Part shown: positions 4,297 through 19,624 of the stretch, in pieces | Layout of the letters: every line of letters begins with the position of its first letter | Numbering within the stretch: position 1 is the stretch's first letter | Assembly: GCA_905250025.1 (NCBI GenBank) | Contig: CAJNOJ010000009.1 | Span: forward strand, 186,001 to 250,000 | From: Adineta ricciae | Lineage: Eukaryota > Rotifera > Eurotatoria > Adinetida > Adinetidae | Length of the DNA: 64,000 nt | Reading direction: 5' to 3' | Notes under the pieces: generated by a model | What the model saw: only the letters and a program-made list of their open reading frames with translations | Told to the model about the DNA's origin: nothing | Database searches by the model: none | Program-made: the position numbers and the translations under genes

Positions 4297-5150
4297 CTTT
4301 TTTTCTATCAAGTGAAGTTGATGGAAGTGCTTTCGACGGTGACGAATTGATGTCGGCCTGTTACTGAACGTTCATAGGATGCAATGAATTCCCTTACGTT
4401 TGACCGATTCAGTGACAAGAAGATTGCATATCATCCTGTCATCATAGTTATCCCACAGAGAAGAGAGAGAGGGAAAGAAAGAAAGAAAAATATACATCGA
4501 TTAAGTCAATGTCAGAGGTTACATTCTTTATTGGTTCACTGGATTGCATGTCATTTTTTTCCTTCTATTTGCTTGAGATAGAGATGAAAAAAAAAGGACA
4601 AATATATTGTGCGAACTGATGTAATTGACAGAAGTGTGGAAAGAATGAGAGTGTATCAATCGTTTTAATGGTTGTTTATGGCTGTAGGAGCAGAAGTCGA
4701 GTTTTTTTCTTCTCGAAAAGAATGTGCAAAGCAAAATGTCGTTGGTCGGATCATTTCGAATGACAGATGTACTCGATCAAAAACAGATGTAAGATTGTTC
4801 TTGGAAGTATTATTCGTAACTTTGGTACAAGCACGACGCTACATGAGAATCAATTTTGTTTTGTGTCAAAAACTGACACATATTTCTAGACTTTTATGAT
4901 CTTCTCTTCTGTGTTACGAAATTTTGTTGACCAACAATAATCAGTCAAATTAGAACTAAATCTCTTATCTTCGATATACATGGACTGCACCCACTCAAAT
5001 AATATTTTGAGTTTTATCAGATAAAACGATATGGGTGTGCGAAAGGAATGCTCTTATCAGACTTCTCTACCGAGCGCTGCTTATAGCTTCTAAAATTAAA
5101 CGTCAACACGACATTCATTATTTATTAAAACATAAATAAAGTCTTCATTC
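4297..5150. other. Divergent intergenic region
   Basis: Spacer between the carboxypeptidase (-) and SIAE (+). It holds short GA-rich runs near 4456-4490, and short open frames without family signal or plausible splice partners. No gene was supported. Confidence 0.5.
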
Positions 5151-7041
5151 ATGGCTGTTCGAGAGATTTTTCTCCTATTAGCTTTGTGTATCAGTTCAAG
5201 TAAGTTAAAGTTTGTTTAACAGTAAAAAATCAATAGAGTGACCTTGACTATCGAAGGTTATGGAATACTTCGATTCGCTAATTATTTCCAGGACAATATG
5301 GTTCTACAGCGTGCACCACAACGTGCCGTTGTTTGGGGTTATGGTGACGCAAAAGCTCGTACGACATTAACATTAAATAAGAAAGTATATCATACAATAA
5401 GTCGTGATGAGCCAGCCGATAAACTTGGTGAGAGCATTTGGTCAGTAACACTCGATGCAGAAACTGATGAAGGACCGTTCGAAGTAATTGTGACACAGCC
5501 CGTCGCTAATGGTTCTTTAGCATCCATATCCTTGAATAATGTTCTCTATGGTGACGTTTGGCTATGTTCAGGACAGTCTAATATGCAAATGACTGTCATT
5601 GATATATTTAATGCTTCGACCGAAATTGCCAATGCAGCGAATTATCCGAAAATTCGTGTGTTTACAGCTGCATTACGAGAATCGTCGTCACCTGTGGAGG
5701 AACTTCTTGGTATAGTGCAACGATGGTCTGTGGCTTCGCCGAGTAGCATTGGTGGTCCATCGTATCAATATACATCTGCTGTTTGTTGGCTCTACGGACG
5801 TATGATACATGTTGCATTAAATAATAGGCCAATTGGTCTTATTGCCACATCGTGGGGAGGTACTCCTATCGAATTTTGGATGCCACCACCGGCCTTACAG
5901 GAATGCGGTATTAAAAAGTTTGTGTCTTGAGTAAAGAAATCAAAATTTAGCTTAATCTATCTTCGTATTCAATAGGAAGAAGAGAATTCCATTTGAATCC
6001 TATGGCCAACCAAATTTTCAACGACTAACTGCAACCAATTCTGAGTTGTACAATGCAATGATTTATCCATTCACAAGAATGGTTATTACTGGAGCTATTT
6101 GGTATCAAGGTAACATTTGACTAAAGTACTCTCCTGTCGTGAATTCAATTTTGAATAGGTGAATCAAATGCATACCAAAATCGTGATAAATACTCATGTA
6201 TGTTCTCGAAAATGATTCAATATTGGCGACAAGTATGGAATACACGTACAAATGGTATCACCGATCTGAACTTCCCCTTTGGATTCGTCCAAGTACGTTG
6301 CATAGAAAGCTTTTCGTTTTGAACATAAGAAAGCTAAGAAATCACTTTCAGCTATCGACCAATGAAAAAAGTGGTAGTGTTGTTGGCGGTTTTCCATGGA
6401 TTCGATGGTATCAAACATTCGGTGTTGGTCATGTACCAAATAACGTTATCCCAAACGTGTTCATGGCAGCAGCAATGGATCTTCGAGACGATGATGGAAA
6501 GTAAGCGTGTCGTAAAAAGACATCGCGATAAGATTGCATTGCACACATTTTAGTATTCATCCACGCACGAAAGAAGATATTGGCTATCGTTTATCACGTG
6601 CTGGTCTTGCTGTTTTTTATAAGCAAAATGTCGAATACTTGGGACCAATTATCTCGAATGCTGTTGTAACCAGTGGTAGTACGAATATCGATATCACTTA
6701 CACGAGTGTCACAGGCATTGAATTACGTAATGGAAATGGATTTGAAGTAAAGAGAACATGAAAATTTTGTTTTTGTCTTTTCAATATCGACTGTGAGTAT
6801 TTCTTAGGTGTGCTGCCGAGGAGCAGCAAATTGTGCCAATGATAATCAATGGTTTGCAGCACCAGCTTCTCTCAAGGGTGGTTTGACAATCACTTTAACA
6901 GTTCCCAATTCGTGTGTTTCGCAAACAATCTATGGTTTTCGTTATCTTTGGCGAGAAACGCCTTGTCTATTCAAACAAGCAGCGGTGTACAGTGCAACAG
7001 ATTCCAATCTTCCATCTCCGCCATATTTGAAAATATTTTAA
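5151..7041 (+). CDS. SIAE: Sialate O-acetylesterase
   Basis: Seven exons (5151-5199, 5239-5917, 5976-6109, 6159-6292, 6352-6500, 6554-6746, 6808-7041) give 523 residues, the usual SIAE length. The enzyme removes O-acetyl groups from sialic acids in lysosome or secreted compartments. The first exon codes a signal peptide (MAVREIFLLLALCISSS). The serine nucleophile lies in WLCSGQSNMQM, the SASA/SGNH signature. The oxyanion Gly/Asn region follows in IGLIATSWGGTPIEFW, and the catalytic Asp/His are expected around the NIHPRTKEDIGYRL segment. The body also carries GAIWYQGESN and GHVPNNVIPN, both typical. The first intron is only 39 nt. Some rotifer-like animals lack obvious sialic acid, so the substrate may be another acetylated sugar. 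Confidence 0.93.
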
Positions 7042-7299
7042 ATTCTTCGAACTTTTCCTTTATTATAAAACAAGAACAAAAATAGAATGATAACAAGATA
7101 GAGAAAATCAATGTGTAATATTCATTTATTGATAACATTTAAACCATTTTGTATCGCTCTTTGTAATGGAGAACTATTTTCGTATGGAGAAAATTCTAAA
7201 TCAGTTGCTGATGAACGTACAATCAATGATGATTTTTTCTCATTCGTACTACCCTAGATCGATGTATTATGCAAAGAGAATCGTGAATTACAAACTAGA

Positions 7300-7828
7300 T
7301 TAGTGTTGTCTTACACTATGAGTATCATCGAATTGGTTGCTAATGTCTAATACCGTAAAAGAAAGTATAGGAATAATCATGGGAAAAGGATGATCGATTT
7401 ACTTTTTAGTAATAAACTTTCATCAAATCCTTGTCCATAATCATCCTCGTCTTCTAAGCCTGAATTTTGATCCATTTCCTCATTTTGTTCATCTGAACAA
7501 ACACAAGTAAATACAAATTTTACGAATATACTTCACATACATGATGTGGCATTGAAATCAAGTGTATCAGGAACATTAAAGCAAGCTGGAGGTGGTAATT
7601 GTGCTTTTTGTTTATGTGCAATATTTTTCACAGGATCTAAAAATTCATATACGCACATTAATTCATTCGTTTCATAACAGCCATCATACCAGAAGGGACC
7701 GGTGCGATAGTACTTGACGCTGTAGAGTATGAATTAATGAACTGTTGTTGTCGACTCAAATAATACGTTAATGGATAACGTGTTTTAAGCAACTTATCCA
7801 AAACTGATTCTTCAGTGGATTGAGCCAT
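7300..7828 (-). CDS. Small acidic protein of unknown function
   Basis: Four exons (7828-7690, 7636-7541, 7492-7403, 7346-7300) sum to 372 nt and close in frame as 123 residues. The N-terminus is helical and polar (MAQSTEESVLDKLLKTRYPL), the middle is Pro-rich (KAQLPPPACFNVPDTLDF), and the C-terminal third is very acidic (LEDEDDYGQGFDESLL). No signal peptide or membrane segment is visible. I do not recognise the family. The start lies only about 235 bp from the start of the divergent filamin-anillin gene, so the two may share a promoter region. Confidence 0.65.
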
Positions 7829-8062
7829 CTTAGATTTTTGTGTGTTTGATGAAAAGGTATGTGTATATATATAACGAAACAGAAAGTATACATTGAAGAA
7901 TGGATGATGTCGCCACATACTTTTAACTGAAATGAACTATCGATTGGTCAAGATGATTTCTCACATTGTTTCGCGGGTTCTTTGTCTTTCCGTCTGCATC
8001 TTGAATTTAATTCTTTTCTTCGTTTTCATCTTTCTCTCTCGAGATCTGAATTGAATAGAATA

Positions 8063-11000
8063 ATGAGTATAAGTCTTCGTCAAAAACTAGTAAGTTGATC
8101 GTTTTTTTTGGCATGTTTTCTCGTTGAGCAAAAATTGGATATTTCAGAGAGATTTAAATAAACAAAAAGAAGAATTTGATCATCAGGATCAAAATGTTGA
8201 TTTGCACAAATCAACAACCACGGCGCCGGTTCAAACGAAAAAAACTCCTGTTAAACAACAAATATTGCACCCAAAATCATTGAATATCAATAATCCAAAC
8301 GCTACTTTAACCACGGAAGAATTTCATCGTCGCGAACAAGGTTTGATTCTCAAAACTTCTTCCGGTGTCGAAAAACAGTGTTAATTTTTTTCTTTAGAAT
8401 TCAATGATGACATGCAACGTGAGTGCGGACAAAATGCTGAATGGAAAAAGATTCAACAGAACACATTCACACGATGGGCGAACGAACGTTTGAAACTAGT
8501 TCATCGACACATCGACAATTTACAAACTGACCTCAGCGATGGACTGAATCTGATCGCTTTAATCGAGATTTTAGTCAAGAAAAAACTACCACGATATAAC
8601 CAACGTCCACAATTTCGTTCACAAAAATTAGAAAATGTCTCTGTTGTACTTGACTATCTTGAAAACGTGGAAAAACGACGTTTAGTTAACATCGATGCAT
8701 CAGATATCGTTGATGGAAAAATCAAGTTAATTCTCGGACTTCTGTGGACATTAATTTTACACTATTCAATTAGTTTACCTGCTTGGGAATTGCCGAATGA
8801 GAGAAGAGAAACAATTCAAAATGTCAAACCAAAACAAAAACTAATGACTTGGCTGCAAGCGAAACTATCATCACAACTCAATATTGTTAATTTCACTTCT
8901 GATTGGAATGATGGACGAGCAATTGGAGCTGTACTTAATTCATGTTATCCAGGTAAGAAAAGTTTCCTGCATTTTGATGAAAATAATGTTTCATTGATTA
9001 GGTTTGTTTCCTAATTGGGCGGATCGGGACCCAAAGAATGCCTTGGAAAATGCAAAAGAAGCAATGGATTTAGCTGAACAATGGCTTGGCATTCCACAGG
9101 TAACGAGAGAGAGCATTAAGTTCGAATGTAAATGAAGTTTATCATGACATTTCTAGTTAATTCAACCACATGAAATGATCAACCCACAAGTTGATGAACA
9201 ATCGATGATGACATATTTGTCCCAATATCCCAATGCTAAACTGAAACCTGGTGCACCTGTTAAGCCAAAAAACCACGCTAATCAAGTTCACTGTTACGGC
9301 CTAGGTAAGAAATTTCAGAAGTTCTTTTATCTCACATTGAAATGTATTTGACTCTATCTATTTAGGTCTTGAGCAAACGGGACATCTTGTTGATAAACCA
9401 GTTATTTTTCATATTGAGACTTGTGCAGCTGGTTTAGGTAAAGTTGATGTGATTGTTGTCAATCCAAATGGACAAACTGAAGAAGTAAGCAGTGCCTTTG
9501 ACAAACATAAAGAATTTGAAGTTTATCTCGATGATTATTTAGTGCACGATCGAATTTCGCGAAGATATAAATCGAACATACGATTGTGTTTTCTATCCGA
9601 GTTTTCAAGGAGAATATAAAGTAAATAGAAGAAAAGATTTTCTATTGAATTCTTATTTGTTGTTGATTTATCCACAGATTATCATCACATTTAATGACCA
9701 AGAAGTACCACATTCACCTTTTCTAATAAACGTTCATGGAACGGAAGCCGTTCCTGAAATTCGAATCGAACATGACGACGATGCTGATGAGGTTGATTCA
9801 CCAGGCAATGAAATCACAAGTAAGTGAATTTGCTCTTTTTTTCTCAACTGAAATTTCTTCTCTCCAGCTCCTGATAACGAACAACCAGTCTATGAAAATA
9901 TCATTCGTGAACAACGAGATTCCACTGAAATCAAGATTACAAATTTGGACGAAGAGAACGGAAATATTATTTTACGAGAAGACCATATTTACCATGCTTA
10001 TGTAAGATAAAATTCAGTTTTTTTTTGCAATAGTCATTCTTCGATATCGATTTAGCAAACAAATATTGCATCTATACAAGACCACCAACTTCGTCGACAG
10101 ATTTCTACACGTTCTATATCAGATCCAACATTGAATAAGCACACATTTTTCTCTCCCATAAAACCACCGCGAACTTATTGTCATGATGAAGATGAAGACG
10201 AATTGGAAAGTCAATCACCACTTGTTTATAGTTTAACCGACTATCGTCTGAAGCAAAAACGTCCTGATGGATGTGATCTTTCTTTACCCACTCAACCGAA
10301 TGCAATTGTAACAAGTTCGACAACACTAAATTCAACAAATTCCTTGTCAAATGATGACACTACACACGAAAATAAACGGCTAACATCAAAATGGTTGATT
10401 ATCGATGAAATCAATGTGAGAAAAGAGAAAAGTTTTGAACTTCTTGTATGTAAAATATCTTTTGTCTCTAGCGTTTGACTGATCTGTCGAAAAGAGAAAC
10501 ATCAACATTAACTCAAACGTCACATGCGCTAAAATGTTGCTCGAATGATCCACATGCCGCTCTTTCCGATAAGAAAATCGAATGTGAACGTGTCATTTTC
10601 ATGGCTCGTCAGAAATTAACATCATATAATAGTGAAATCAAACATTTGGAAAATCTCGATCCAGATAGTGAATACTATTCATCAGATATTTCGCATAGTA
10701 CATTGATTTTACAAGATATTCGTCTCGCAATTAAAGAAGATTATCTACGATCGTTGCGAAAAGGAAAAGGTTTGTTATCCATCAATGAAACGCTGAAGAG
10801 TGACATTTTCTTATTTAGAAACGAAGTTTTACTTTTTTATGTGCGCGGTTCATTATCGATCGCAAACACTTTTTTCGCACATGGTTTCATCATTTGATAC
10901 CTTACAAACCAATGGACAAGTGATCTTTTCCAATCGGATGATTATCCGAGAAGTGGAGAGCAACTTTGCAGCTACGATCGGTGTTTATTGCATGGTGAGT

Positions 11001-12019
11001 AAAGTTTTCTAATTTATACGTGTTTGTCATCTCATTTCAATTAAGGAAATCACAATGAAACATCCAATCACTGGACTTGACCATTCACCTGTTGTTTGCC
11101 CGCATCATCACGTTTCATCATCAGCGAACACCAGTCAATGTATGAAATGTGATAAACAACGATTGAATTCTACCGGTATGAAATGCAAAACTGTTTTCAA
11201 AGAACTTTGCGTTTACTAGAAAGTCTCGATAATCTCTAGTGTCAATACCTGGTCAACATTCGAAAACAAATACAATGATTCGTGTGAGCAATTTTTTTCA
11301 AGTTGATGCTATTACTATTCGTAAAGAAGATCTTAAAACACAGGAATTCCTTCTTTCGGTAAATATTGTGTTTCTCTTCATCAAAGATTGATCGTTTTAT
11401 CCTCATAGATTTCATCGGCATCAATTCCATTGAAACATAAATTACACGTAATATTACAACGTCTATCCGAATTGAAAATTCGTAAAGCTGGCTATCTAGT
11501 ACGTACTTCTATTTCATGCAAGTTTGTTCGATACATTTCCATTCCTCTATTTAGACAATCTATTGCGATATCAGTGGATCTGGCGTGTGGATTCGTCGAT
11601 GGTTCACTTTAACTAACGAGCAAAATCTTCGCTATTGGCCATCACCCGAAGACGAAGAGAACAATATAGTAAGTCATCAGTCAACGATTCAATTATTTGA
11701 CTTTTGTTTCGTTTTTCAGCCACCAGCAGGTGAAATTGATCTACACCATTGTATTGATCAAACTGTAAGTGTCTTACAACGAGAAACATGTGCACGACCA
11801 CATACATTTGAACTACGTATTGCTGTTCCATTGAAAAAATCGAACGAATACGGACAGAACGAAGATCATCCAAGTAGTTCAATCATCGCCCAACCATTTG
11901 GTAAACGTACTTTGTATCGGTATTGGTTAAGTGCTGATTCACGAGAAGACCGTAACGATTGGTGCAACATACTTAATCAAATCTTAGGCGATTTACGCGA
12001 ATGGGAAGTGAACATTTAA
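8063..12019 (+). CDS. Filamin-anillin fusion: CH-CH-IgFLN-linker-AHD-PH
   Basis: Seventeen exons (8063-8089, 8148-8364, 8398-8952, 9002-9099, 9157-9304, 9366-9484, 9543-9620, 9678-9819, 9868-10001, 10056-10415, 10472-10769, 10819-10994, 11046-11175, 11240-11358, 11409-11498, 11555-11668, 11720-12019) total 3105 nt and 1034 residues with all phases matching. Residues about 90-320 are a filamin-type actin-binding domain of two calponin-homology folds (WKKIQQNTFTRW, NLQTDLSDGLNLIALIE, LILGLLWTLILHYSI, WLGIPQ). About 350-430 is one filamin Ig repeat ending PHSPFLINVHG. A polar, acidic linker follows. About 640-800 is an anillin homology domain (LQDIRLAIKEDY, VESNFAATIGVYCM). The C-terminus is an anillin PH domain (GVWIRRWFTLT, GEIDLHHCID, DRNDWCNILNQ). 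Expected role: cortical actin to membrane/septin/Rho linkage in cytokinesis. The combination is unusual. Confidence 0.9.
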
Positions 12020-12426
12020 GAGAAACTGATCTGCATGTTCTTCTTTGTTGTAAATAGAAACATTCTTTTTTACGGATCAGTATTTCACTCATGGTTATTT
12101 TCTTTTTATCGTTATCTATATCTATTAACATATATACAAATCCAACGTTCGCGTGTGTTTTGTCATGTTTATCTACATCGATATATATATCTCGATCTGT
12201 ACAGCGACGACATGTGTTTTTTTTTCGTATCTTCTATTTGTGTTGTTATCTATATTATGAAACTGTTTATATGTTGTAGAGAAAAAACGGAAAACATTCG
12301 ACGATTTGATGAAATTTTGTAATTAAAATACATAGGTTTTTACATGTTTGAAAGTAACGAGAAAACCGTATTGAATCATAAAAGGAAATATTTGCTAAAC
12401 TGCAACTTTATTTACGAATGTTCTCA
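12020..12426. other. Convergent intergenic region
   Basis: A+T-rich spacer between the 3' ends of two converging genes. It contains T-rich tracts and A-rich ends (for example ATTAAAATACAT near 12320) that could serve as polyadenylation signals. No gene seen. Confidence 0.5.
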
Positions 12427-13761
12427 TCACAAAACAAAAATAGTGTAGGTTTTCTTATAATTTAATTTATGAAAATTCACGCCATCTTCTGTGGAAATAG
12501 CTAAGACATGTGTACCGAATAAAGTACTTCTGTATGGAATTGTATTATATGATATTATTGAATTAACGTTACCTGTTTTTGTTATATGTAATAAACGTCC
12601 TGATTCGAAGTCACTAATTAGCCAGTCCTCTGCGATGAATGGACAACAATGCAGTGGTTTAGTAGGACACCATGTGACATCGAGAATGAACGACCAAATG
12701 GGTCTTAATGTTTCTGCTGATCGTAAATCCATTCGTGTTGTATTCTCGGAGTGATTTTTGATTATCACGGCAAGGTTTTCTTTATCATATCGAAGAGTAT
12801 CGATGATTTCTTCTGATTTGCATATATTCGATTGCCATTGATGATCGAATTTCTTCGTTGATGCGAGAGTAACTTTCATAATGGACGAGTGCGATTCGTT
12901 CGTTGAGAGAAAAAGACATTTCTCCGAACATGTACATGATAACCATTTGCGTTTTTCAAGAGCTTTTATTTTTTCAATTGACATATCGTTTTCGCTGAGA
13001 AGAAAAACACTTTTCGCTGTAGTTAAAACAAAACATTTCAATGTTGTTGACCAGCATACATCGAAAACCTTTCCATTCCGCCACGGAACTTGTTTGAAGA
13101 TTAGTAAGTCTTCATTTACAAGGCATAGATTAGGTGTTTGATGCATCAAAAGTATGCGATCATTACTAGATAATATACGATAACTCCCTTCAGGTTGATG
13201 AATAGTCCGATAAGTTGGCGAAAGAATCGATAAGTTATAGACTTCTTCGTTTATCCCCCGGATATAAATCGAGTTCGCATCTACTACTAATGGTCGTATT
13301 TGAATATCAATAAAATTCTCATGCAGATTGTTCACTTGTCTTTCTAAATAATCGACCATCGTTGATAATTCGTGGAAATCAGTACGGTTCATCTGTTGGT
13401 CGTGAATTAGTTTATTAACTTTGTTGTGAACTTGATTGATTTCATCGCGTTCTTCATTGACTTTGTCTTTCAACAATCGTTCGACTTCTCGATATTTTTG
13501 TTCGACATAGTGATCGATCTTCTGATGAGAATCCGCTCGCCAGTGTTCAAGTTGCTGTCGATAAGCATCGGCGACAGTCGCAATATCAATCGATTTCAGA
13601 TGAGCATCTAATGATTGAATCGTGTCAACGAATGGATGTAGTCGACTGTTGAGATAGTTATTATGTTCATTCAAATGAACGACACAGATGTTTTGTTGAC
13701 AGCAATGACATAGAGCACATGCTGTACGATCACAAGCATGGATGGCGCATGGTTGAGACAT
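12427..13761 (-). CDS. B-box zinc finger/coiled-coil protein with propeller-like C-terminus
   Basis: Single-exon frame of 444 residues from the ATG at 13761; the frame is open further upstream but that part has no ATG. Residues about 5-35 carry a B-box-like zinc motif (CAIHACDRTACALCHCCQQN, then C and H ligands). A long charged coiled coil follows (about 60-190, for example YREVERLLKDKVNEERDEIN). The remaining 250 residues contain repeated hydrophobic strands with W/L-rich blocks, resembling a TRIM-NHL-like beta-propeller, but I cannot assign exact blades. TRIM-like proteins often act as ubiquitin ligases or scaffolds; no RING finger is present here, so ligase activity is not supported. It converges on the filamin-anillin gene. 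Confidence 0.75.
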   Translation of the reverse strand: MSQPCAIHACDRTACALCHCCQQNICVVHLNEHNNYLNSRLHPFVDTIQSLDAHLKSIDIATVADAYRQQLEHWRADSHQKIDHYVEQKYREVERLLKDKVNEERDEINQVHNKVNKLIHDQQMNRTDFHELSTMVDYLERQVNNLHENFIDIQIRPLVVDANSIYIRGINEEVYNLSILSPTYRTIHQPEGSYRILSSNDRILLMHQTPNLCLVNEDLLIFKQVPWRNGKVFDVCWSTTLKCFVLTTAKSVFLLSENDMSIEKIKALEKRKWLSCTCSEKCLFLSTNESHSSIMKVTLASTKKFDHQWQSNICKSEEIIDTLRYDKENLAVIIKNHSENTTRMDLRSAETLRPIWSFILDVTWCPTKPLHCCPFIAEDWLISDFESGRLLHITKTGNVNSIISYNTIPYRSTLFGTHVLAISTEDGVNFHKLNYKKTYTIFVL

Positions 13762-14581
13762 CGGCGAATAACGCCAAACAGAATTAGAGACAGAATTGAT
13801 GCAAACGAAAGAATTTGTCGTTTTATGATGGCAAATTTTGAAACAATCTCGTATTTTTGAAGGACACCAAAGATTACCTTGATATTTACTCGACAAAATC
13901 GGAGACTTTTCTTTTTAATTTATGATATAATGAAAGATAATCACAACTTTGTCAATATTGAGTTTGCCCGATGGGCTCGATATGCTTTAATTAGCTCATA
14001 AAACATCAAATACATCTCATTCCTTTACATACATTGATCAACATCTCTGGTAAGTTCATTGACAAACGAATTCCTACTCATTCGATAGTTCGCGACGAAA
14101 AACAGTATGAGTAATCTAGTGCGTTTTTATGTTTAGTCAAGTCTGTCAAGTTCGATGCGTAGGAACAGAATGATGTCGTTCGATCGATTGCTTATACATC
14201 GAGTGATTCATCTATCGAAAGGTTACGTCAAAGCATAAATGTATGGCAATCAAAAAGCGCCACGAGACCGTTCACGTTATTTAATTACAAGTACTTTTAT
14301 TTATTTACTTCGATTGTGCTGAAATAATCTATAGCGGACGACCACGCGCAAACAAATATTATTCATATAGAATAGGATGACATTCTCACGAATCAATACA
14401 TCAAAGTAGGCCCGAACATCTATGAGTAACAAAGCATCGTCGTCGTTTTGCTTATCTAGGTAACTTTATCACGTTTTTATTAACAAAAAATATTATTTAC
14501 ATGATTTTGATCATCATATTTCAAAACAACGAGACTACTTACTAATCTTTGCAACAGAGAATAACGAAATACGGAATAAAT
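13762..14581. other. Intergenic region
   Basis: Upstream region of the B-box gene and downstream of the 14.6 kb orphan. Nothing codes here by family or splice evidence; base composition is unremarkable. Confidence 0.45.
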
Positions 14582-15397
14582 TTAAAACCATTCATACTCA
14601 TCACTGATTGCATCGTGAAAAATTTCTTCTTCTTCTTCGTTATCGACATCAGCACACTTTCTTCTCCATCGTTGTCTTACCGTACGAACAATGTGACGTG
14701 TTCGTGCGTGTAAGGTATAACAAGCACCATTCGACGAGTAGTAATGAAATAAGAAACATGAAAATGATCGTACTGCATTTTTAAATTGACCATTTGAAAA
14801 TGGTTGAAATAACAAGGTTAATAACTGAAATAGTCGGTGAATACTGGAGATTAGAATCATTAGACGACTGACAATTAAGTGGATAGCTGATAGGATCGAT
14901 CTTAACATTTGAATCCACCCATAAATGACACGAATAATTTGAATAAGTTTTTCAATGAATAGAAAAATTTCCCGTGTGAATCGATCGATTTGAGCAAAGA
15001 GTCGAAAGATAAATGTGGCTGCTAGACATAGGGAATTATACGTTCGAGAAATATTCTTGACTAAATGCTGAGCACGAGATTTGCGCTTCAATGGTTCTTC
15101 ATATAAATATGCATTGGCTTTTAGACGATGTTTACTAAAAACAAAAAACAAGAAGATTAATGTACAGGAAAACAAAACTATCAAACAAAGTGCTTACGAA
15201 CTGAAACGAACAAGTAATGACGTACGGTGGAAGGGATCGTGCTGCTGTCGCTTTTTGGTCTTGGAGAAAATCATATGTTCTATACAGGTTAGTATTATGA
15301 TAGGAGTGTATGGATATGAATAGTTTTCAAGGCATATATGTATGGTGCGACATATTTGCAACAAACGATTAATAAAGGTAGAATAACCTGTAAACAT
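14582..15397 (-). CDS. Hydrophobic protein of unknown function
   Basis: Two exons, 15397-15198 and 15134-14582, join in frame (753 nt) across a 63-nt intron to give 250 residues. The central part has long amphipathic or membrane-associated helices rich in I/L/F and R (for example FTREIFLFIEKLIQIIRVIY and LMILISSIHRLFQLLTLLF). The C-terminus has a basic patch (RQRWRRK) followed by an acidic run (DNEEEEEIFHDAI). A further 5' exon is possible because a splice-acceptor-like sequence lies just inside the proposed start. I do not recognise the family. Confidence 0.5.
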
Positions 15398-16429: not shown

Positions 16430-19400
16430 ATCGTAAGGTATCAGTGAAAACTGTGCGGCAAAGGAATTGGATGGATGATATTCAATTGCTACCAGATAGT
16501 ATTGACAAAAGTTAGAATAAAAACAATGAATGATCTTATAAATGATCCGTTTATTGTTTGTAGAACTACTAGATGAATGCTCTGAATTGATTCAGAATTT
16601 TAGTGAGTGCGACTCAGTCGAATTTGTTCCTTGCTATCCATTGAAATTTCGTATTAGTTGACAATAAAAGATCATCATCATCGAAACGTGTTAGGTCAAA
16701 ATCAAAATCGCCAAAATATTCTAGTGAGCCGCTCGCTCCTTCTCTAGATCTATGCTCGAACATTGAATAACACTTGACTTAGTCACGAAAAACAGAAAAG
16801 TTGCTAAAAAAGCTCCAAAACAAAAGTCATACCATCGACGATCAAAACCAACGAAATTAAAACACGCTTTACGAAAGAAAAATCTTTCCCCATCATTTCA
16901 GTACAGTTCAACGGCAAGTACAAATGCTTATCCTTACCATACACCGTTCGTTTTCCACGTTAACGATAAAAATTTCCAGAAACAATATCGAAACTTTCCT
17001 TAGATCACTTCCATGTTACCATTCATATGGTCCAATCCAATGTCCAAAAGATAAATTACCTATGCCAAGAGATCTTTGGTATCGTATTGTGTATTCTCAG
17101 CTACTAGAACAACAATTAAGTAAACAGATACGATTTACGATGAACCATTGGCAATGAGTTTAAATTCTTTTAGTGCCGTCTTCGAAAAGAAAACAAAAAG
17201 AAGGTAGTTTTGTGAATGAAGAAGATTGCAAAAAGCAATCTACAGAAAGTTCAGTTGAAAGCAATAGATCAATTGATGATTCATCAGTTTGGCATAGTAT
17301 GCGACGAGAATTTTGTTATTTACGTTGTCATTGGCAGGAAAATTTAGATGATAAATCTATCAGCAGTAGTCCACGACGACAGCAAACGATGAATGCGGCG
17401 TTTTCGTCACCAATCATAGCAACAAAAATGCTCAAATTAGATGGTACTATTGATGAAACATTTCATTGAACTTACAAATTTCGATTCGTACGAATTTCTT
17501 TTATGAAATAGACGTACCAACTCCTATCACAAAAGAAGAATCACTATTCATAGCACCATCTAAATCTCACAAATCATATCTGAGTAAAATAGTTCTTTGT
17601 GAAGCTATGAAATGATAGATTTTCATTTAGTCAATCATCTGGAGTATGTTCCTGAAACTTTACCATTGGAAAGCGAACATGATCCAGGCCAGTCAAGTAA
17701 AGCTTGTCAATAAACTACTAATCTATTTTTATTTAAAAAATCCAAGATGTTTTACAATCGAAAATCGAAACGCAGAGAGAATGTATAAAAAAAAGTCACA
17801 TCGTTACAGCATAGTCCATTCTTTTATAATCCATAGGTGAGAAAACTGTTCTATCAACTCAATCTGTACACACCGAATTACCCATCCATCCAAGTATATC
17901 CTTAGTTTTAAAACAACTGCTTAAATCATAGAATTTCATTCCTTTCTGCAAAGAGATTCTTCGTAGCTTGTCGACAGATGCTGCATTGGAACGTGAGATA
18001 TATCTCACATTTGCCATGCTCTAGAAAAATTTCTCTGCGTATAGTGATTCTGTCCAATTCCAATCCTTCTGTGCCCTCAATTATCCTTCTGCACAATCAA
18101 CCAATTATTGAAGAATCACTTCGTAAACTCTTTCTCTCTCTCCTCATTCTTTTGAATTCTAATCTGTTCGATATACAGTAACGACGGCATCACTACCATC
18201 TCAAGTACTACCAAAGATTGTATCTATTGAGGACGTTGTGGAGCCTCCTTCCGCTATATCCGATCATCCGATATACAATCAATTGGTTGAATGTATATAC
18301 AAAATTCTCAAACTAGACTGAATTTTTTCCTGTTTTTGATAAGATTATCAACTTCAAGATGTTCTTCGAGTTGAATTATTCAAACGACTAAATCGCCGAT
18401 TGATACACATACGTCAAGCATTGAAGCGCATGTCATCCAACGATATCGAAATAAAACTAAAATACAAACGTGATGGTATAGACTAGTATAAATAATACGT
18501 TACTCATCTCGAAATTCTAGCATTAGCCAAAAAAAGACAAACCCCAGTGGAATCCTTGACCACGGATGAACGACTGGCTATAGCTGAACGTTAGTAGAAC
18601 ATTCTCAATATTCGATTGAAGAAGAAACTTTTACTTATTATTTCCTTTTTTTAAAGTGGAATTAAATGTCTATGAATATGCTCAGGGTAAGTAAAGACTT
18701 CTCATCAAAAGAGTCACATCTCACCAGGAAATTTAGCAGTAGTCGATACTCCATCCACGCAATATATACCGATGGAAACGACAAACGAATCTGAAATACA
18801 CCGGATATCATCAGTATCTCAAATCTCGCCTGTGCGAAAGAGTGCTGTTTCAATACAATCGTTCACCTCAACATTCCAAATAAGTGAATAGTACTTTCTT
18901 GCATACCTCGGCACAAAATGATCATTTTAAAGTTCAACCATCCGTCATTAGTCAATCTGTAGCTCTTCTTTCGACGACAGCAACTCAATTCAGTGATAAA
19001 ACAGGTAAGTTAGACGAAATTAAATATTCACTCCGTCTATTTCACGTAGAAAAACTTCTTTCATGGACTCATCCACTTCTGTCTTACTTCATGAACAATC
19101 TATTTGAACATTCAATACCGTTACGTAAAATTCAAATACACAAACAACGTGAGTGCGCGTAGTCAACTCTGAACTCTTTGTATTGAGAATGAAACATAGT
19201 GGCTCGACGATACGAACATATTTGTGCGAAAGCGAAAGAATTCAATATTGAACAATTACAAACACGTAAGATTGATGTATGATTATTTTCGTCAATATAA
19301 ACTTTTTCTTAATAGAAATCCACGCCAAATCGAAGGGTTCGTATTCAATGTTAATAATCAAAAAACAGATATCATGTTCAATGATTTCAGCTTTAGTACA

Positions 19401-19624
19401 ACAAAAAGCTATTGCGAAACCAACTGAAGAACAATGTTTACGAATGGCCGAATGTAAGTAACAGATATGAATACTTCCGAAAGACAACCTAATTTGTTTT
19501 GTAGTGAAATTATGTCTGTTCGAGCTTGCACGAGGTACAGTTTTTTCTCTTCAATTGTATTTTGACCCTCTCATGTCGTTCTCTTCTAGAACAAACCGAA
19601 CGAAATCAATTAAACTTGGAATAA
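16430..19624 (+). CDS. Orphan gene of many small exons, charged helical protein (5' incomplete)
   Basis: A chain of short exons with GT-AG introns of about 40-80 nt; the first exon has not been found. Convincing segments include DRKVSVKTVRQRNWMDDIQL (from 16430), CPKDKLPMPRDLWYRIVYSQ (about 17038-17100), an exon from 17173 starting MPSSKRKQKE, LINHLEYVPETLPLESEHD (about 17635), DVLRVELFKRLNRRLIHIRQ (about 18360), RQTPVESLTTDERLAIAE (about 18540), LSWTHPLLSYFMNNLFEHSI (about 19058), YEHICAKAKEFNIEQLQ (about 19215) and FELAREQTERNQLNLE before TAA at 19622-19624. The downstream half joins in frame by hand; parts around 16.9 and 17.9 kb remain uncertain. The product looks soluble, charged and helix-rich with disordered Ser/Lys stretches. 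I do not recognise a family. Confidence 0.55.

Follow-up and report, generated by a model that had tools for sequence, protein, structure and literature searches.

We found that a gene of the bdelloid rotifer Adineta ricciae is probably an anillin that carries an exon-shuffled filamin block (CH1-CH2-IgFLN1) in its middle and would still work as an anillin. The gene lies in a window of 64,000 nucleotides (contig CAJNOJ010000009.1, positions 186,001 to 250,000), which is the whole stretch of DNA analysed, and occupies positions 8063..12019 of its + strand, from the ATG at 8063 to the end of the stop codon at 12019. Its 17 exons have compatible phases and give a coding sequence of 3081 nt for 1026 amino acids with no internal stop codon, and all 16 introns are GT-AG introns of 48-64 nt each. 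A first-pass annotation had proposed the same coordinates and 17 exons with matching phases, all of which the gene model confirms, but its total of 3105 nt has to be corrected.

In Pfam searches, the fusion protein matched CH in two stretches (133.2 bits), the Filamin repeat in a single stretch (57.9 bits), Anillin (47.0 bits) and PH (44.6 bits), in each case above the curated cut-off, while NCBIfam gave no match. A PDB sequence search aligned residues 80-425 with the actin-binding domain (ABD) and repeat 1 of human filamin-B (4b7l, 1.9e-114), and residues 625-1023 with the anillin homology domain (AHD) and PH domain of human anillin (4xh3, 8.1e-40); the AHD part matched 4xh3 with an E-value of 2.7e-40 and the PH part matched 2y7b with an E-value of 1.9e-22. 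Both searches agree with the domain order that had been read earlier, filamin CH-CH-IgFLN1 followed by anillin AHD-PH, and the single Filamin stretch bears out the remark that the later Ig repeats of filamin are absent.

The features described below are all on the + strand. Exons 3-8 (8398-8952, 9002-9099, 9157-9304, 9366-9484, 9543-9620 and 9678-9819; 1140 nt within a span of 8398..9819) make up the filamin cassette, as recognized by Pfam, PDB and filamin-gene introns. CH1 (residues 92-197, Pfam CH) lies within exon 3 at 8451..8768, and CH2 covers about residues 218-315 in exons 3-5 (8829..9228), an extent taken from the spectrin CH domain 1bkr, since Pfam counted the second stretch without a position. 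IgFLN repeat 1 (residues 331-421, Pfam Filamin) is encoded by exons 5-8 at 9274..9722, and the 4b7l alignment reaches residue 425. The end of exon 8 (9723..9819) encodes the final repeat residues and an acidic linker, and the filamin gene continues into repeat 2 at the same point; the 3' edge of the cassette falls either in this exon end or in intron 8 (9820-9867). Exons 9-10 (9868-10001 and 10056-10415) encode the anillin linker, exons 11-15 (10472-10769, 10819-10994, 11046-11175, 11240-11358 and 11409-11498) the AHD with its Rho-binding helices and C2 domain (Pfam Anillin at residues 694-838; 4xh3/4xoi), and the stretch 11484..12019, which begins in the last bases of exon 15 and takes in exons 16-17 (11555-11668 and 11720-12019), the PH domain (residues 885-1015; Pfam and 2y7b) and the C-terminus.

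The fusion has the tandem CH ABD and the first Ig repeat of filamins (FLNA/B/C), but this repeat stands alone where filamins have a long chain, and its C-terminus is AHD-PH instead of the dimerisation repeat. With animal anillin (ANLN; we take Drosophila Scraps to be one) it shares the AHD and PH tail and the pre-AHD motif, and it differs in the folded CH-CH-IgFLN1 block in its middle. Among the matches listed, none of the 22 non-bdelloid proteins with Anillin and PH (20 from fishes and sharks, two unnamed) has a CH domain. An anillin whose actin-binding module has been exchanged appears to be new, judging from the sequences compared, and no report of a filamin-headed anillin was found in the open-licence PMC literature, judged by title.

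The placement of the block becomes clear from an unfused orthologue in Didymodactylos carnosus. Two proteins of this species, P0008 and the partial P0010, whose N-terminal end is absent, match the linker and tail of the fusion at 60-61% identity, AHD and PH included, and the domain search found no CH or Filamin domain in either. The N-terminus of P0008 is similar to fusion residues 1-73, encoded by exons 1-2 (8063-8089 and 8148-8340): none of 5000 shuffles reached the observed score in any of five comparisons, and the KLKELNKQKE of the Didymodactylos N-terminus is identical in P0002 of Adineta steineri. Since exons 1-2 match the N-terminus of an unfused anillin, the filamin block lies inside an anillin gene. 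The first-pass annotation had missed the anillin derivation of these two exons, and its picture of an anillin C-terminus fused onto the start of a filamin does not hold. Where the fusion carries its filamin block, P0008 contains some 340 residues of different sequence that do not resemble filamin (score 36, against a mean of 38 after shuffling). Relative to Didymodactylos, the middle region is replaced in the fusion. The linker stretch STRS[IM]SDPTLNK...YSLTDYR in exons 9-10, a region of low confidence in the predicted model, is conserved and common to P0008 and P0010; its S, Y and R columns, as well as AHD residues, are invariant in 16 anillin-type proteins, six of them bdelloid. PF16018, presumably the model of the anillin N-terminus, is not among the matches of the fusion or of the Didymodactylos proteins; this absence decides little, because only one of the 22 other anillin proteins (P0091) lists it. 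A short KFE motif was considered as a relic of the anillin N-terminus and rejected, as it is N-terminal in only 1 of 24 non-bdelloid anillins.

The intron positions indicate how the cassette arrived. Phase-1 introns flank it on both sides (phase 1-1), and five introns are common in position and phase to the cassette and a filamin gene of the same genome (L009, contig C15), namely TEE|E (phase 1), CAP|G (1), YGK|G (1), KEK|C (0) and QYK|V (0). The second filamin gene (L010, contig C30) breaks at four of these five places, YGK|G being missing, as read by eye, for position, from tblastn alignments. The two filamin genes are diverged and have many repeats, and this genome's filamin gene, once spliced, reproduces residues 1-440 of A. 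ricciae P0006 exactly. The five retained introns argue for exon shuffling and against the arrival of the block as a retrocopy or spliced cDNA. The cassette does lack one filamin intron (NI|D), as a retrocopy might, and has one extra intron (PQ|L), but five introns stand in filamin-gene position and phase, and unless all of them were regained there, a retrocopy is extremely improbable. In the favoured reading, filamin exons that form a block between two phase-1 introns would have been shuffled into the anillin gene. Since the filamin intron that follows repeat 1 likewise has phase 1, the block may equal filamin exons 2-7, and the end of the last filamin exon may have decayed into the acidic linker.

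CH matches at C9:1007, C23:452540 and C130:140473 were also considered as filamin and rejected, since their alignments with the fusion reach only 36-42% and they resemble beta-spectrin, which we assume them to be. The beta-spectrin-like loci are C9:1-9000 (L007), C23:449600-459500 (L006) and C130:133000-142900 (L008). Two of them are homologous copies with 96% identity that share their two contigs with the fusion copies; the third is more distant (about 82-88%) and perhaps an ohnologue.

For a tree of 22 heads, one partial Macrostomum sequence was set aside, and the boundaries of the R. socialis head, whose match was split, were redrawn by hand. This tree places the six fusion heads in one group (100/100) that lies with the bdelloid filamins (92/92) on a long stem of 0.43. 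Nowell et al. 2021 (PMC7943196) place D. carnosus as the sister of the remaining bdelloids in their sample. One insertion after the Didymodactylos split and an older insertion lost in Didymodactylos both fit. The second scenario, a fusion older than living bdelloids, is possible but rather doubtful. The tree speaks for it, as it sets the heads next to a group of all five bdelloid filamins, that of Didymodactylos among them (filamin group 80/70), and a topology that joins the heads to the filamins of Adineta and Rotaria (four sequences) scores slightly lower, though the AU test does not reject it (p 0.072). However, the heads may be pulled toward the base by their long branch, the Didymodactylos middle region carries no filamin trace, and, with that branching order of the species, one later gain is at least as simple.

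We found a second copy of the fusion gene on contig C23, with all 17 exons of equal length and AG and GT at all 16 introns. The two copies differ at 115 of 3081 coding nucleotides and 15 residues (dN 0.0062, dS 0.169, dN/dS about 0.037 overall) and at 83 of 876 intron positions plus 6 in gaps, and a 9.9-kb stretch of C23 aligns over its full length to window 4859-14715 at 93.8% identity. In the parts computed, which leave out residues 1-73, dN/dS is 0.027 for residues 74-430, 0.079 for residues 431-618 and lowest, at 0.012, for the AHD-PH part (residues 619-1026). The fusion gene appears, from these substitution patterns, to be kept by natural selection. The dS of 0.17 fits homologous copies of A. 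ricciae, for which PMC5916493 gives a mean KS of 0.14 (SD 0.036) and a genome GC of 35.6%.

The query is fully covered by four proteins (P0001-P0004) among the 114 listed from the best 7986 candidates scored: those of A. vaga (90% identity), A. steineri (84%), Rotaria sp. Silwood1 (83%) and R. socialis (78%), behind which stand 1, 9, 26 and 33 member sequences, respectively. In R. socialis P0004, part of the AHD is missing and a 20-residue insert is present. The bdelloid proteins among the matches listed in two further searches were these four fusions and the two Didymodactylos proteins, with no others. The same domain order, which had been suggested as something to look for in related rotifers, is therefore present across the whole query in four species, and the earlier proposal of a natural filamin-anillin chimera stands with these orthologues and the 17 exons on C23. 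As far as seen so far, the sequences place this chimera only in bdelloids. No anillins of monogononts, Seison or acanthocephalans were among the matches listed, which says little, as the searches require shared 5-residue words and two of them scored only the best candidates; any rhotekins with less than 0.55 of the query length could not become candidates in them.

These copies and orthologues bear on the idea that a truncated filamin and an anillin are two neighbouring genes wrongly joined by the reader or the assembly. One protein of Rotaria sp. Silwood2 (P0005) could be taken in its favour, since it contains exons 1-9 of the fusion and is annotated without the anillin half. Its departure from the fusion is probably a mis-annotation: the tail after exon 9 resembles the neighbour gene at window 17627-19536, which points to a conserved gene order downstream of the fusion in Adineta and Rotaria. 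Against a misjoin are the whole-query proteins in four further species, the anillin-like N-terminus that precedes the filamin block, and the linker at residues 431-618, which is open and constrained. The identical 17-exon layout on two homologous contigs that have diverged separately makes an assembly join very unlikely. Downstream of the fusion, a 495-aa open frame on the opposite strand (12427-13914, -) has its 3' end about 400 bases past the fusion stop; it has no Pfam family at its cut-off, and part of it looks like what we take to be a B-box.

We found no canonical (unfused) anillin in this 130-Mb assembly. With the Didymodactylos anillin as the query, all 13 matches at E <= 0.01 lie within the two fusion copies, and the loci of the Anillin family are three: the two fusions and one gene on the minus strand of contig C385 (G000:C385:79616-83026; L001, L004), which is rhotekin-like and presumably a rhotekin. 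The C385 gene matches the Pfam Anillin family with 72.3 bits, more than the 47.0 bits of the fusion, so the family name alone cannot separate them. It differs in its HR1-like start (19.9 bits, below the cut-off of 33.1), and tblastn detects no similarity between this locus and the fusion at E <= 0.01. A phmmer search of three anillin tails against the C385 frames gave nothing at E <= 10, but this is a weak test because a true anillin tail likewise gave nothing. The fusion is set apart from the rhotekin-like gene by the comparison with solved anillin structures, by the motif ahead of the AHD and by its orthologue in Didymodactylos. The fusion does not look like an additional protein beside anillin, and it is most likely, on these sequence grounds, the bdelloid anillin itself. 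The assembly may be incomplete, with genes missing, given that a published A. ricciae assembly is 174.5 Mb according to PMC5916493.

The structure predicted for the A. vaga orthologue is of low overall confidence (mean pLDDT 57.5) and weakest in the CH region. Its tail superposes on the anillin-RhoA crystal 4xoi with a TM-score by target of 0.82 and on the anillin PH domain 2y7b with 0.84, while its CH head fits filamin ABDs poorly (rmsd 12-14, TM-score by target < 0.5), and the case for the CH head thus rests on sequence. Across 338 aligned columns, the A. vaga head and human filamin B share 50% identity. Of the columns invariant in 14 filamins (those of R. magnacalcarata and Aceria were left out), all six fusions keep 45 of 49 in CH1, 29 of 33 in the linker and CH2, 3 of 5 before CH1 and 8 of 12 in the Ig repeat. 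The long branch of the fusion heads implies that the actin affinity may have changed.

According to a cytokinesis review (PMC7575755), the N-terminal half of anillin links to F-actin and myosin II, and the C-terminal half binds Rho, phospholipids and septins. For filamin A, PMC7714767 describes the actin-binding domain alone as sufficient for F-actin binding. The block would have entered at the place that the long middle region takes up in the unfused orthologue and at which other anillins contact actin and myosin. At the cleavage furrow and cortex, the AHD of the fusion is predicted to bind Rho-GTP and its PH domain to bind phospholipids or septins, and the CH-CH head may act as a folded single-site clamp on F-actin. 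The arrangement fits a coupling of F-actin binding to a putative Rho- and membrane-binding tail. Because the C-terminal dimerisation repeat of filamin is missing, a single molecule would tie membrane and Rho to actin and would not cross-link filaments by itself, and the contact with myosin that the former N-terminal region made has probably been weakened or lost. The fused protein might alternatively have left cytokinesis and become a specialised cortical or membrane-actin linker, to which the missing middle region of the unfused orthologue and the long branch of the head could be ascribed. We consider this unlikely, given that no other anillin was found in this assembly, that dN/dS is lowest in the AHD-PH part and that the predicted AHD and PH folds match human anillin.

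We therefore return to a working anillin with a filamin head, and lean slightly towards the view that the only anillin of Adineta and Rotaria swapped its disordered actin- and myosin-binding region for a folded single-site filamin clamp. If this is true, their cytokinetic ring would be tied to Rho and the membrane by an actin grip unlike the one described for other animals, and nature would have carried out a domain swap of which Didymodactylos still has the unswapped gene. The presence of both fused and unfused orthologues in a single class provides a ready-made test. The two cytoskeletal genes involved also give a clear example, from apparently asexual animals, of exon shuffling with matched phases. 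A filamin head at the actin- and myosin-binding place of anillin suggests that this contact can be re-engineered.
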